In this document: positions 54,781-59,050 of the stretch, one piece after another
How the letters are laid out: every line of letters starts with the position of its first letter
Numbering within the stretch: the first letter of the stretch is position 1
Assembly: GCA_016786495.1 (NCBI GenBank)
Contig: JAEUUJ010000019.1
Coordinates: 1 to 64,000 of the forward strand
DNA from: Cyclobacteriaceae bacterium
GTDB taxonomy: Bacteria; Bacteroidota; Bacteroidia; Cytophagales; Cyclobacteriaceae
Length of the DNA stretch: 64,000 nt
Reading direction: 5' to 3'
Translations under genes and position numbers: made by a program
Notes under the pieces: generated by a model
What the model saw: the letters and a program-made list of their open reading frames with translations, nothing else
Told to the model about the DNA's origin: nothing
The model's database searches: none

Positions 54781-55884
54781 CTAAACCCGCTCGCTTTCCT
54801 TATTCATCACTTTTGTCTGAATCTGGATCGATTCATTGTGAATAAGTTTCAGCATGTCTTTGGTGAATTCTTCGCTTAATCCCATTGCCATGCTCATCGC
54901 CAAACGGGTGGCGATGATTTCCTCCCAACGGCCCACCTGCAGGATGGTAACGTTGTTCTCTTTTTTATACTGACCGATTTTTTCTGAAATCGTCATTCGC
55001 TTGGCAAACTTTTGCATAATCTCATCGTCAAGCTGGTCGATTTGCTCACGCAGAATAGCCAGTGTGTCTTTGAAATTCTTGTTGTCGGTAGAAGGCTTAC
55101 GCGCAACAAGTCCCTGAATGATGCTGCCGAGTACGGCAGGTGTTACCTGCTGCTTCGCATCGCTCCATGCCGCATCAGGATTAATATGACTTTCAATCAT
55201 TAACCCGCTCATGTTGAGGTCGATTGCTTTCTGACTGATCAGCGCAATCAAATCACGGTTACCGGCAATGTGGCTGGGGTCGCAGATGATGTCCAGTTCA
55301 GGAATTCTGGTCTTCAGTTCTATGGCAAGATCCCACATCGGGGCATTGCGGAAAGGTCCTTTATCAAACGAGGAGAATCCACGGTGAATGGCTGCAAGCT
55401 TTGTAATCCCCGCCTTGTTCAACCGCTCCAGGGCGCCAATCCACAATTCGATATCCGGGTTAACCGGATTCTTCACCATTACGGGAATATCTACTCCTTT
55501 TAATGAGTCGGCAATTTCCTGCACGGAGAAAGGGTTCACCGTGGTACGCGCACCCACCCAAAGAATATCTACGCCAGCTTTCAGGCAGGCTTCAACGTGT
55601 GCTGCATTGGCAACTTCGGTTGTTACCGGTAATCCGGTTTCTTTTTTTGCCTGAATCAACCAGTTCAATCCCTCAGCACCGGCACCTTCATATTGTCCGG
55701 GGCGCGTTCTTGGTTTCCAGATACCTGCACGTAATGCGTTTACCTTGCCGGTAGCAGCAAGTTGTTTCGCAGTCGCGATGGTTTGACTTTCTGTTTCTGC
55801 ACTGCAGGGTCCGCTGATCACGGCCGGTAAGCCATTGGTTGGTAACCACGATGACATTGCTACAAGCTCCAGTTCCTTCTTCAT
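54781..55884 (-). CDS. Bifunctional DAHP synthase / chorismate mutase
   Basis: A 367-aa fusion. Residues about 10-260 are a KDO8PS-like (type I-beta) 3-deoxy-7-phosphoheptulonate synthase: VISGPCSAE, RAGIWKPRTRPGQYEG, TEVANAAH, WVGARTT, MVKNPVNPD, AIHRGFSS, CDPSHIAGNRD. Residues about 275-355 are an AroQ-type chorismate mutase (LREQIDQLDDEIMQKFAKRM). It joins the first step of the shikimate pathway to the first step of the Phe/Tyr branch, a fusion common in Bacteroidota. It is the last gene of the operon, 12 bases behind tyrA. Confidence 0.93.
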   Translation of the reverse strand: MKKELELVAMSSWLPTNGLPAVISGPCSAETESQTIATAKQLAATGKVNALRAGIWKPRTRPGQYEGAGAEGLNWLIQAKKETGLPVTTEVANAAHVEACLKAGVDILWVGARTTVNPFSVQEIADSLKGVDIPVMVKNPVNPDIELWIGALERLNKAGITKLAAIHRGFSSFDKGPFRNAPMWDLAIELKTRIPELDIICDPSHIAGNRDLIALISQKAIDLNMSGLMIESHINPDAAWSDAKQQVTPAVLGSIIQGLVARKPSTDNKNFKDTLAILREQIDQLDDEIMQKFAKRMTISEKIGQYKKENNVTILQVGRWEEIIATRLAMSMAMGLSEEFTKDMLKLIHNESIQIQTKVMNKESERV

Positions 55885-55896
55885 AATATTACAAAG

Positions 55897-56775
55897 TTAT
55901 TTATTTTCAGTCGTTTTTGTTTTCAGTTCAATTCCATTGAGTACTTCACGGATGCGATTAGCATCCTTCATAATCTTATGCAGTTCATTTACATCGCGTT
56001 TCATTAAATGATACTGAAACCGTTGCAGGTGCATGATGTATTCCAATATCGCCTGACTTAAATGTTCGGCATTCTGTTCAAAGATAGGGGCCCACATATC
56101 GGGCGAGCTTTTTGCCAGACGCACAGTAGAAGAGAAACCACTTCCCGCGAGCGCGAAAATATTTTTCTCGTCACGTTCAATGTCCAGCACGGTTTGTCCG
56201 AGTAAGAATGAACTTACGTGCGACAGGTGCGACACGTAAGCTACATGTTTGTCGTGCTCGGCAGCATCCATGTAAATGGTGTTCATGCGCAGGGCGGCAA
56301 ATATTTTTTCGGCCGTAGTCAATGCGTTGTCAGACGACTTTTCTCTTTCGCAGATGATGTTCGTTTTGTTTTGAAACAACCCGGAGAAGGCAGCCGTAGG
56401 CCCCGAGTTTTCTGTACCGGCAATCGGATGAGCAGCGACAAACTGGCCCCGGTTCTTGTGATGGGAGATTACCTTACAGATGGTGGTTTTGGTTGAACCG
56501 GTGTCTACGACAACGGCTTCCTTTTTTACCGTGTCGAGAATGGATGGTAAAAGCTGACTCAACACACTTACCGGAATGGCCATGACAATCAGGTCGGAGG
56601 TTGAGATGGATTTTCCTTCCGCATCAATCCGGTCGACAAGCCCGAGTTCAAGCGCTTTTGCTGCATGCTCTTTGTTCAAGTCGATGCCGACCAATTCCGT
56701 AACCATGCCTGACTTGCGCAAGTCGATGGCGATCGAACCCCCAATTAATCCTAAACCGATGATCGTTGTTTTCAT
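55897..56775 (-). CDS. tyrA: Prephenate dehydrogenase
   Basis: A 292-aa NAD(P)-dependent enzyme of tyrosine synthesis that converts prephenate to 4-hydroxyphenylpyruvate. The dinucleotide motif IIGLGLIGGSIAIDL is at the N-terminus, and the catalytic histidine lies in AAHPIAGTENSGP. No ACT domain is fused, so feedback control on this protein is not apparent. Its start overlaps the aminotransferase stop by four bases. Confidence 0.93.
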   Translation of the reverse strand: MKTTIIGLGLIGGSIAIDLRKSGMVTELVGIDLNKEHAAKALELGLVDRIDAEGKSISTSDLIVMAIPVSVLSQLLPSILDTVKKEAVVVDTGSTKTTICKVISHHKNRGQFVAAHPIAGTENSGPTAAFSGLFQNKTNIICEREKSSDNALTTAEKIFAALRMNTIYMDAAEHDKHVAYVSHLSHVSSFLLGQTVLDIERDEKNIFALAGSGFSSTVRLAKSSPDMWAPIFEQNAEHLSQAILEYIMHLQRFQYHLMKRDVNELHKIMKDANRIREVLNGIELKTKTTENK

Positions 56776-57962
56776 GCTTTCTCGGTTTGGAGTCTAGTTT
56801 TGGTTTGAACGAATTTTTCGACCCGGTCGCAGGCTTCCTTGATTTTTTCAACTGTGCTGCACAGTGAAATGCGGATGTATCGTTTTCCGGCCTGCCCGAA
56901 AATGAAGCCGGGGGTAATGAACACTTTTGTTCCGTACAGAATGTCATCCACAAATTTCTCTACATCGTGAATCGCATCAGGAACCTTTGCCCACACGAAC
57001 AGGCCTGATTGTTTTGATTCATACGAGCAGCCCAGCACATTCAGGATTTTGTGCGCAGCAGTTCTTCGTTCGGTGTAGATTTTATTCAGGCTGGTGAACC
57101 ACTCGTTTGTGCTTTGCAGTGCCTCAACTGCTGCATGCTGCAGGCCGAGAAACATGCCCGAGTCCATGTTGCTTTTTACTTTCAATACGGCATCGATGTA
57201 TTCTTTCTTCCCGGCAACCCAGCCAATGCGCCACCCTGCCATGTTGTGCGATTTGCTGAGCGAGTTTAATTCAAGCGCAACATCCGCGGCACCTGGCACG
57301 GAAAGAATACTGATGGGTTCATCGTTCAGAATAAGACTGTATGGATTGTCGTTAACGATCAAAAAATTATGCTCACGCGCCAGATCAACAAGTTCTTTTA
57401 GCTCAGCAGCCGATGCAATTCTTCCGGTAGGCATGTGCGGAAAGTTCACCCACATGATCTTTACCTTCGAAAGATCCGTTTTGCGAAGCGCGTCAACATC
57501 TACGCCCCATTGGAGCTCTTCCTTTAGCGCGTATGTTCTGATTTTTCCACCCACGAGGTTGGCAACTGATGAGTAGGTAGGATAACCCGGATCCGGAATC
57601 AAAATCTCATCACCTTCATTTACAAACGCCATCGAGATGTGCATGATGCCTTCCTTCGATCCCATTAACGGGAGAATCATGGTCTCAGCATCCAGCGAAA
57701 CGTTGTAGATGCGAGTATAAAAGTCAGCAATCCCTTTGCGCAATTGCGGAATGCCTTTATAGTTCTGGTAGCCGTGATTGGCCGGATTGTTCGCCGATTC
57801 AATCAGTGCGTTGATTGCGGAAGGTGCCGGAGCCATGTCGGGACTGCCGATGCCCAGGTTGATCACGCGATGCTCCGGTGTATCCAAACCGCGCACCTCT
57901 GCCAGCTTCCTGCTGAAGTAATATTCTTCTACGGCCTGTATGCGTTTCGCTGTTTGTATCAT
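56772..57962 (-). CDS. Class I/II PLP-dependent aminotransferase (probable aromatic or aspartate type)
   Basis: A 396-aa fold type I aminotransferase. INLGIGSPDMAPAPSAINAL opens the PLP fold, and NDNPYSLI holds the PLP-contacting Asp and Tyr. The Schiff-base lysine is in LNSLSKSHNMAGWRIGW, and the carboxylate-binding arginine is in YIRISLC. Its place between pheA and tyrA suggests it transaminates phenylpyruvate and hydroxyphenylpyruvate, or prephenate. The start at 57962 lies two bases after the pheA stop. Confidence 0.9.
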   Translation of the reverse strand: MIQTAKRIQAVEEYYFSRKLAEVRGLDTPEHRVINLGIGSPDMAPAPSAINALIESANNPANHGYQNYKGIPQLRKGIADFYTRIYNVSLDAETMILPLMGSKEGIMHISMAFVNEGDEILIPDPGYPTYSSVANLVGGKIRTYALKEELQWGVDVDALRKTDLSKVKIMWVNFPHMPTGRIASAAELKELVDLAREHNFLIVNDNPYSLILNDEPISILSVPGAADVALELNSLSKSHNMAGWRIGWVAGKKEYIDAVLKVKSNMDSGMFLGLQHAAVEALQSTNEWFTSLNKIYTERRTAAHKILNVLGCSYESKQSGLFVWAKVPDAIHDVEKFVDDILYGTKVFITPGFIFGQAGKRYIRISLCSTVEKIKEACDRVEKFVQTKTRLQTEKA

Positions 57963-57964
57963 AC

Positions 57965-58804
57965 CTAAAACTTGATCTGCGCCTTCTTGTATTCCCCTAA
58001 AATGTTCAGGTTTTTCACCTGCCGTAAAACATCGCGCACGGCACTGTCGTAGTCCCTGCGTTTCTTCCACTCCACATCCACATGAATTGAATATTCACTT
58101 GGACGCCCGATAATCGGAATAGACTGAATCTTCGAGAGATTAATGCTGTGCTCCTTGAATGTAGTTAACGCATCGGCCAGGCTGCCCACGTGATTGGCAA
58201 CTTCAAAGCTTAACGAAGCCTTGTTGCTTTCCACTTTCGGATTTGCCCGCCTGTTCAGAATGAGAAACCGCGTAAAGTTCTTTTTGTTTGTCTCGATGCG
58301 CTTCTCCAGAATGTTCAACCCAAATTTTTTGGCTGCGTATTCATTGGCGATGGCTGCAGTGTCTTTCAATTTGAAATCTTTCACCCGTTTTGCAGAAACG
58401 GCCGTATCATCGCTTTCGCGGATTTCCACTCCTTTTAAAGAGAAGAGAAATTCTGAACACTGGCGGATCGCCATGGGATGCGACTCAATCGAAGTGATGT
58501 CTTCGAGCTTCACACCCGGAAGCGCCAGCAGGTGCATGTGGATGGGCAGGTACAATTCGCCCACGATGCTGAAATGATAATCCTGTAAAAGAAAATAATT
58601 CGGCAGGATGCTTCCTGCGATCGAATTTTCGATCGCCATCACAGCAACATCTGCTTTGCCACTTTTCAACGCCTCACATAATTTGTGAAACGACAGGCAC
58701 TCGATCGTTTCAATCGGCTGATCGAAATACGTGAGTGCGGCCACCTCGTGAAAGCTGGTGGCAATCCCCTGAATAGCAACCCGTAATTTTTTCTTCTTCG
58801 TCAT
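57965..58804 (-). CDS. pheA: Prephenate dehydratase
   Basis: A 279-aa protein that converts prephenate to phenylpyruvate for phenylalanine synthesis. The catalytic domain (about 8-185) has AVMAIENSIAGSILPNY, SHPMAIRQCSEFL and the conserved NFTRFLIL. A C-terminal ACT domain (about 195-275) carries GSLADALTTF and LSKIQSIPIIGRPSEY. The usual ESRP Phe-binding motif is not kept there, so feedback by phenylalanine may be weak. No chorismate mutase is fused; that activity is on the last protein of the operon. The start at 58804 is fixed by the attenuator U-run ending at 58805. Confidence 0.92.
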   Translation of the reverse strand: MTKKKKLRVAIQGIATSFHEVAALTYFDQPIETIECLSFHKLCEALKSGKADVAVMAIENSIAGSILPNYFLLQDYHFSIVGELYLPIHMHLLALPGVKLEDITSIESHPMAIRQCSEFLFSLKGVEIRESDDTAVSAKRVKDFKLKDTAAIANEYAAKKFGLNILEKRIETNKKNFTRFLILNRRANPKVESNKASLSFEVANHVGSLADALTTFKEHSINLSKIQSIPIIGRPSEYSIHVDVEWKKRRDYDSAVRDVLRQVKNLNILGEYKKAQIKF

Positions 58805-58836
58805 AAAAACAAAAAGTCCCGGTTTTTCCGGGACTT
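58805..58836 (-). terminator. Attenuator terminator (3:4 hairpin) before pheA
   Basis: On the minus strand AAGTCCCGG (58836-58828) and CCGGGACTT (58822-58814) form a perfect nine-pair stem with an AAAAA loop, followed by TTTGTTTTT up to the base before the pheA ATG. A full intrinsic terminator placed before the first gene implies conditional readthrough. Confidence 0.92.
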
Positions 58837-58862
58837 CTTTTGAGTTCTTGTATCGTTTCAGT

Positions 58863-58949
58863 TCAGCAACAACACTCCGCTCTTCTAAGTCCCGCACGGG
58901 TCTTAAAATAGAAGTACCAAAAGTAAAATAATGAGTGGCTGAGCTTCAT
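58863..58949 (-). CDS. Aromatic-rich leader peptide of the pheA operon
   Basis: A 28-codon open frame starting at ATG 58949 and ending at TGA 58863-58865. Codons 7-15 encode LFYFWYFYF: eight aromatic residues in a row (four Phe, three Tyr, one Trp). The C-terminal part is basic (KTRAG, LRR) and ends ECCC. An A-rich stretch (AGAAAAAG) precedes the ATG, as is usual in Bacteroidota. The frame differs from that of pheA. The peptide itself is probably not functional; its translation rate would report charged aromatic tRNA levels. Confidence 0.88.
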   Translation of the reverse strand: MKLSHSLFYFWYFYFKTRAGLRRAECCC

Positions 58950-58967
58950 GTACTTTTTCTAATTGCA

Positions 58968-58999
58968 TAAAGATAGAATCATTTTAACGCACTGTGCAA
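58968..58999 (-). promoter_or_regulatory. Promoter of the pheA operon leader
   Basis: Minus-strand TATCTTTA (58975-58968) differs by one base from TAnnTTTG. TTG at 58999-58997 is 21 bases upstream, near the usual -33 spacing. The predicted start near 58961 leaves about 11 bases before the leader ATG. Confidence 0.6.
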
Positions 59000-59050
59000 G
59001 AAGGCACCGCAACTTTTTGCGAAATTTTGTGCTAATGTGCGTTAGGAGAG

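Follow-up and report, generated by a model that had tools for sequence, protein, structure and literature searches.

The Phe leader of E. coli is rich in Phe codons, and in enterobacteria tyrosine is handled by a repressor. The ilv and thr leaders carry several kinds of control codon, the Bacteroid-trp RNA is read as a leader-peptide element, and the attenuator survey of Vitreschak and others (FEMS, 2004) reportedly mentions Bacteroidetes. Members of the enterobacterial Rfam family Phe_leader (RF01859) combine runs of codons for the controlled amino acid with competing antiterminator and terminator structures before pheA. For the Bacteroidota, Table 7 of PMC1173090 (2005), drawing on the Merino database, gives a putative attenuator before pheA>hisHb>aroAIbeta-aroQ>tyrA of Bacteroides thetaiotaomicron, PMC9723704 (2021) describes a structured 5′ element before Flavobacterium psychrophilum pheA that is conserved in other Flavobacteriaceae, together with hints of leader-peptide attenuation upstream of amino acid operons more generally, and PMC2864571 names Bacteroid-trp (RF01692) as a cis-regulatory candidate in Bacteroidetes. 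In Actinobacteria, PMC1262725 found the Phe and Tyr operons to lack an upstream element of this kind.

Here, we analysed a 64-kb stretch of DNA from a member of the Cyclobacteriaceae (the window), in which a four-gene operon beginning with pheA is preceded by what is very probably a ribosome-mediated transcription attenuator gauging charged tRNA-Phe and tRNA-Tyr together. The locus resembles RF01859 in its run of control codons and its competing antiterminator and terminator, but mixes Phe and Tyr codons and stands before one operon with both branches. With the ilv and thr leaders it would share the gauging of several amino acids by one leader, although its codons are aromatic, whereas theirs are branched-chain or Thr/Ile. 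The B. thetaiotaomicron operon comprises the same four kinds of genes, belongs to the same phylum and has a predicted attenuator, but its last two genes are in the reverse order, and the table entry gives no leader peptide, codon content or covariation (PMC1173090); the Flavobacterium element is not called a leader-peptide attenuator, nor are its codons named, in the part of PMC9723704 that deals with it. The initial annotation had considered a joint aromatic sensor in Bacteroidota little described; these two precedents qualify that statement, which holds insofar as the literature searched, mostly papers open without subscription, contained no account of a leader that gauges Phe and Tyr jointly in this phylum.

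Materials and methods

PheA was searched for in 148 genomes of the family (140 with a match) and 392 genomes of the phylum (337 with a match), and a further contig scan supplied the best 80 of 575 relatives. At each locus, 600 nt upstream of pheA were examined; L036 has no upstream sequence and lies outside the counts, while L224 and L225, with only 58 and 379 nt upstream, were scored as misses. The rows with an aromatic leader and a terminator numbered 127, or 125 once identical ones had been removed, and came to 122 when three wrong-frame rows (the second frame of L052, the TTG frame of L126 and the distant frame of L139) were dropped by hand. The window is one of these 122 rows, and L151 contributes two; as the rows are related to each other, their counts are not independent; 121 were long enough for swap controls. 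Consensus folding of 37 close relatives revealed little beyond the terminator, so separate alignments (A3, A4 and A5) were used. The ribosome model, run on 120 loci with one row each, assumes that the ribosome covers 17 nt on the upstream side of the first A-site base and 12 nt on its downstream side, and yields P(2:3), the probability of pairing between segments 2 and 3, in RNA ending in the terminator loop. About 8 kb of upstream sequence was fetched for 40 of the 42 family loci that have a 37–50% identical PheA and lack a leader at pheA, with shorter stretches for L282 (1.5 kb) and L291 (6.4 kb).

Results and discussion

Leader ORF and competing structures in the window

On the minus strand, positions 58949–58863 encode a 28-codon leader ORF (MKLSHSLFYFWYFYFKTRAGLRRAECCC*) whose codons 8–15 (58928–58905) are eight consecutive aromatic codons, a reading of the initial annotation that translation confirms. 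This is the longest aromatic run in all six frames of the 64 kb, where only one other run reaches at least five codons (YYYYY at 1781, minus strand). The same strand continues with pheA (prephenate dehydratase, 57965–58804, ATG at 58804), a class I aminotransferase (56772–57962), tyrA (prephenate dehydrogenase, 55897–56775) and a DAHP synthase/chorismate mutase (54781–55884). The NCBIfam matches agree with the gene names first given to this operon, with only prephenate dehydrogenase above the curated cut-off and several other best matches below theirs. The locus thus has the short ORF expected of a ribosome-mediated transcription attenuator, in which consecutive codons specify products of the pathway. 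The closest gene 5′ of the leader is divergent and on the opposite strand, and the terminator described below therefore ends no upstream gene.

Four segments follow the run on the minus strand, all at the places originally assigned to them. Segment 1 (AAGACCCG, 58897–58904) pairs with segment 2 (CGGGACTT, 58887–58894) through a CCC/GGG core with an A·A mismatch and a 4-nt loop, since a 2-nt loop cannot close. Segment 2 is common to the 1:2 and 2:3 pairings, and its complementarity to segment 3 (AAGAAGTCCCGG, 58828–58839, with AAGTCCCGG at 58836–58828) exceeds that of shuffles (p = 0.01). Segment 3 is both the 3′ arm of the antiterminator and the 5′ arm of the predicted intrinsic terminator, making the two structures mutually exclusive through one common arm. 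Segment 4 (CCGGGACTT, 58822–58814), together with the U-rich tail, spans 58805–58822, and this U-tract ends one base before the ATG of pheA, the first gene. The nine pairs originally counted in the terminator form its core, which A-U and G-U pairs lengthen to a stem of 12 pairs, six of them G-C. RNA folding bears the arrangement out: the terminator (−18.7 kcal/mol, z −4.0) was equalled by none of 200 shuffles, and the whole leader (58805–58949) folds at z −3.5.

A structured leader ahead of a biosynthetic operon might also be a tRNA- or metabolite-binding RNA, such as a T-box or a riboswitch, accompanied by a chance ORF. We consider this exceedingly unlikely, given that the window and the leaders of 18 relatives contain no Rfam family at gathering score, and that relatives keep both the ORF and its distance from segment 2 (see below). 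Specifically, the T-box model had no match at gathering score in the window, and neither did RF01692 in the window or at the trp leader of the same genome. RF01859 scored 22.4 bits on the window against a gathering score of 55, and none of 59 relatives exceeded that score; sub-cut-off matches to this family occur all over the genomes, with two of the three best falling on pheA leaders.

In the window fold, segment 2 is paired with sequence on its 5′ side as long as segment 3 has yet to be transcribed (P 0.66), and in RNA free of ribosomes codons 10–14 are predicted to sequester segment 3, by means of TTTTGG and ACTTCT (58910–58922, minus strand) that pair with it around 1:2 (P 0.82). This latter pairing exceeds 0.5 in the window only (1/120 loci). 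The window's 1:2 helix, aided by codons 10–14, thus holds segment 2 in the absence of a stall, and because both pairings prevent the antiterminator without a ribosome, the resting state of the window would be off.

The −7 consensus of Bacteroidota promoters is TAnnTTTG, and the element TATCTTTA (58968–58975, minus strand) carries five of its six specified bases; CTTG at 58997–59000 on the same strand, 21 nt upstream of the −7-like element, is a candidate −33 element. An exact TAnnTTTG occurs at most 45 nt upstream of the leader start in 37 of the 122 rows, compared to 3.2% of shuffles, and lies 17–20 nt before the leader ATG in 19 of those 37. A generic sigma-70 scan of the window gave no minus-strand site. 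Judging from the promoter-like motif, transcription would start shortly before the leader ATG, with RNA polymerase trailed by a ribosome on the leader. An aromatic codon that cannot be read would stall this ribosome, which would mask the codon stretch and/or segment 1 while its front edge stays at or before segment 2, allowing segment 2 to pair with segment 3 and the four-gene Phe/Tyr operon to be read. With Phe and Tyr plentiful, the ribosome would proceed over segment 2, or 1:2 would reform behind it, and the 3:4 terminator would follow. The predicted logic is OR, a stall on either Phe or Tyr being sufficient.

Conservation and covariation in related genomes

Among the best 80 of 575 relatives, the nearest named PheA homologues (79–80% identity) include Chryseosolibacter, followed by MAGs labelled Cyclobacteriaceae with up to 79% identity. 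Directly before pheA, an aromatic leader with a terminator is present in 17/17 family loci with a PheA of at least 67% identity, in 15/57 with 37–50% identity, and in 0/15 with a more distant PheA. In the other families of the class and in order family f2, the combination was found at 59/59 loci (52 by rule, 7 by eye), which represent part of such genomes and include none with only a distant PheA. Other classes have it at 6/27 loci (5 by rule), the remaining 21 being without a leader near pheA, and named distant loci at 8/50 (6 by rule), with 42 lacking a leader near pheA; many of these named-distant misses belong to the Prolixibacteraceae. Of 29 close named loci, 27 were counted, the other two being copies of L006 and L016. 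A sequence model of close leaders gave one strong match (E 1e-17 or better) in each of the 17 same-genus genomes within a set of 59; three of the 17 had supplied its training sequences, and the matches in the others reflect sequence score alone.

The complementarity of segments 2 and 3 exceeds that of shuffles (p ≤ 0.05) in 101/122 rows. In alignment A5, 96.7% of the 2:3 cells are paired and 10 are double-changed, with 0/500 shuffles as high on either measure, while 100% of the 3:4 cells are paired and 5 are double-changed (2/500 shuffles). The number of pairs with a double change was less striking, as 54/500 (2:3) and 148/500 (3:4) shuffles were as high, and swap controls were modest, ranking a sequence's own partner in the best 5% for 30/121 (2:3) and 28/121 (a:b, described below). 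The pheA upstream regions of many relatives thus keep the aromatic leader and show covariation in both 2:3 and 3:4, which upholds the original proposal of a leader-peptide attenuator with 1:2, 2:3 and 3:4 pairings; as far as can be judged from sequence, the same kind of device is present in many other Bacteroidota.

A further pairing, between the start of the leader (a) and the stretch after segment 2 (b), is better supported in relatives than in the window. There, a (58941–58933) and b (58877–58864) form an isolated duplex of −14.0 kcal/mol but were rejected as a helix, with p = 0.26 against shuffles and a probability in the fold that falls from 0.06 to 0.00 once segment 3 has been transcribed. 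In alignment A4, 92.6% of the a:b cells are paired, compared to at most 49.6% in slid versions, and 7/18 sequences have a G-C/C-G swap. Following a first test that gave p ≤ 0.05 in 34/122 rows, a:b exceeded shuffles in 69/121 versus 20/121 for reversed strands; it has P > 0.5 in 80/120 loci before segment 3 and in 10/120 once segment 3 is present. In alignment A3 it is weak (81% of cells paired, 14/500 shuffles as high), and a +3 slide yields more double changes because the strand repeats. Finally, a small hairpin b:c (58849–58877, minus strand; P 0.54 in the window fold), nested within the antiterminator, is weak in general, with p ≤ 0.05 in only 31/121.

Codon content of the aromatic run

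The aromatic runs of the 122 rows contain 543 Phe, 423 Tyr and 39 Trp codons. Phe and Tyr codons are both present in 122/122 leaders, each run having at least two Phe and at least one Tyr (a single Tyr in one row), and the Phe/Tyr split has 0.36 times the variance of a binomial, an effect to which the relatedness of the rows contributes. We strongly infer from this composition that one leader senses Phe and Tyr jointly, which suggests that Tyr is gauged here by translation, unlike the enterobacterial repressor.

The initial annotation had included Trp as a possible third input. One Trp codon does lie in the run of 39/122 leaders, the window among them, as a joint sensor of all three aromatic amino acids would have it. 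However, no run has two, 83/122 have none, and the same genome carries a separate leader for this amino acid: the stretch upstream of its trpE (L257), the only PF04715 match, encodes MIRVSNIAWWWHISETDM, a WWW leader followed by a terminator. Because W is sparse in the runs and trpE has its own WWW leader, we retain Phe and Tyr as the sensed pair, conclude that Trp is no meaningful input, and regard the three-amino-acid sensor as unlikely, all the more so as 31 further runs before DAHP synthase genes (see below) lack Trp. Likewise, the stretch upstream of hisG in this genome (L258) encodes MRTTTNIHLHHHHVLHTMRGRFMF, an HLHHHHVLH leader with a terminator. The trp and his genes thus also appear to be under leader-peptide attenuation in this genome, and these leaders with their terminators show the mechanism's footprint elsewhere in it.

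That the aromatic residues are conserved throughout would also suit an arrest by the nascent aromatic peptide itself, similar to that of TnaC, instead of by uncharged tRNA. Nevertheless, each position of the run can hold either Phe or Tyr, the remaining residues are variable, and G-L, common towards the end, is encoded by nucleotides that overlap segment 2, which makes such an arrest very improbable compared to stalling at codons whose charged tRNA is scarce.

Predicted position of a stalled ribosome

Segment 2 follows the last aromatic codon at a median distance of 9 nt, about one ribosome edge, with 92% of the 121 rows in the range of 6–12 nt versus 13% of shuffles. Control codons placed in this way would let a stalled ribosome spare segment 2: over the 120 loci, the mean P(2:3) is 0.86 late in the run and 0.75 at the last aromatic codon, and declines to 0.30, 0.10 and 0.05 at the next three codons, i.e. 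the modelled 2:3 pairing collapses one to two codons past the run. Three alternative footprints shift this drop by at most about one codon. The near-constant distance between the last control codon and the antiterminator offers a natural measurement of the ribosome edge.

For the window, P(2:3) is 0.02 without a ribosome, 0.53 for a stall at codon 7, 0.67–0.72 at codons 8–15, 0.29 one codon past the run and 0.007 at the stop codon. These values do not support the expectation that stalling as early as codon 8 would fail to turn the switch on, or that the later Phe/Tyr codons should matter most, since all eight codons score alike (0.67 at codon 8 versus 0.71 at codon 15). In the model, a codon-8 stall frees 2:3 because the ribosome there already covers part of codons 10–14, which pair with segment 3 when no ribosome is bound; masking either segment 1 alone or codons 9–15 alone frees 2:3 with P 0.83. 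Once complete, the terminator prevails at equilibrium (P 0.99) even when a ribosome is stalled on the leader, and the switch must therefore be kinetic.

The window's off-by-default logic does not extend to most relatives. In 115/120 loci, sequence on the 5′ side of segment 2 holds it until segment 3 is available, but 2:3 then wins in 96/120, reaching P ≥ 0.5 without any ribosome (mean over the 120 loci, 0.70). In those loci, the passage of the ribosome over segment 2 would therefore be decisive.

Leaders before DAHP synthase genes

In 31 of the 40 loci with upstream stretches fetched, an aromatic leader with a terminator lies 3.5–5.0 kb upstream of pheA on the same strand, compared to 0/40 on the opposite strand of the same stretches of about 8 kb, and the next long ORF after the leader opens with a DAHP synthase-like sequence in 31/31. 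At L265, which was examined in full, DAHPS/chorismate mutase, aroB, aroA, a small protein and pheA follow on one strand. The pheA loci without a leader are thus not simply losses, and since the leader precedes the DAHPS gene in these 31 relatives, the module apparently keeps its place at the front of the aromatic operon.

The DAHPS-headed leaders, on which the spacing model was run as a second set, show 2:3 complementarity above shuffles (p ≤ 0.05) in 28/31 and have a single W among 267 aromatic codons, located outside the run. Their spacing has a median of 12 nt, and the mean P(2:3) is 0.88 at the last aromatic codon, then 0.85, 0.46 and 0.13 over the following three codons, which sets the edge one to two codons beyond its place in the leaders before pheA. 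With the ribosome at the leader stop, 2:3 can still form in the model of this class (0.80), a misfit to the mechanism; such a ribosome would sit between segments 2 and 3, a placement that the model ignores. A conserved tail, GRIGAAYC, follows the aromatic run in these 31 loci (L265–L301), and at L265 its RIG codons overlap a stretch complementary to the terminator arm.

The DAHPS-headed class also bears on a translational switch, in which the 3:4 hairpin would hide the ribosome landing site of pheA and 2:3 would expose it. The terminator tail abuts the pheA ATG in the window, and the hairpin ends at most 6 nt before the estimated pheA start in 15/122 rows, both of which would suit such a switch. 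Yet the gap between hairpin and pheA has a median of 18.5 nt, the hairpins are followed by T-rich tails (a T-rich tail being a search criterion), and the same module stands ahead of another gene in the DAHPS-headed class. We therefore find a translational switch hardly probable and favour transcription attenuation.

The two classes together provide about 150 natural variants (122 + 31 rows) of a proposed device, open to direct tests, that would control Phe and Tyr synthesis in Bacteroidota, and the codon content, spacing and helices of these variants lend themselves to quantitative predictions. A broader proposal, which we hold to be evenly balanced between right and wrong, is that of a Bacteroidota-wide 'Phe-or-Tyr ruler' with OR logic, a run cut to the ribosome edge, a position at the operon head (pheA or DAHP synthase), tandem copies in some lineages and, in most relatives, read-through as the default until the ribosome passes the run.

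Observations at individual loci

Two tandem aromatic leaders precede pheA within 340 nt in L125, L135 and L140 (order family f2) and in L151 (class family f8), each leader having its own terminator-like hairpin, with some of the hairpins judged by eye. L213, L216, L227 and L236 have no aromatic leader and share TTTGCGTAAATTGTCCCGG...CCGGGA with a T-run just upstream of pheA, which may represent a different control element or simply mark where the preceding gene ends. A 65% identical PheA with a leader of this kind (MNFSQFSSARYYFWYEPQPGLCRVARC) is encoded by L205, a MAG labelled Acidobacteria, pointing to either a mislabelled contig or a transfer. In the other-class genomes L102–L106, PheA lies inside open frames of 691–734 codons, which suggests a fusion protein.
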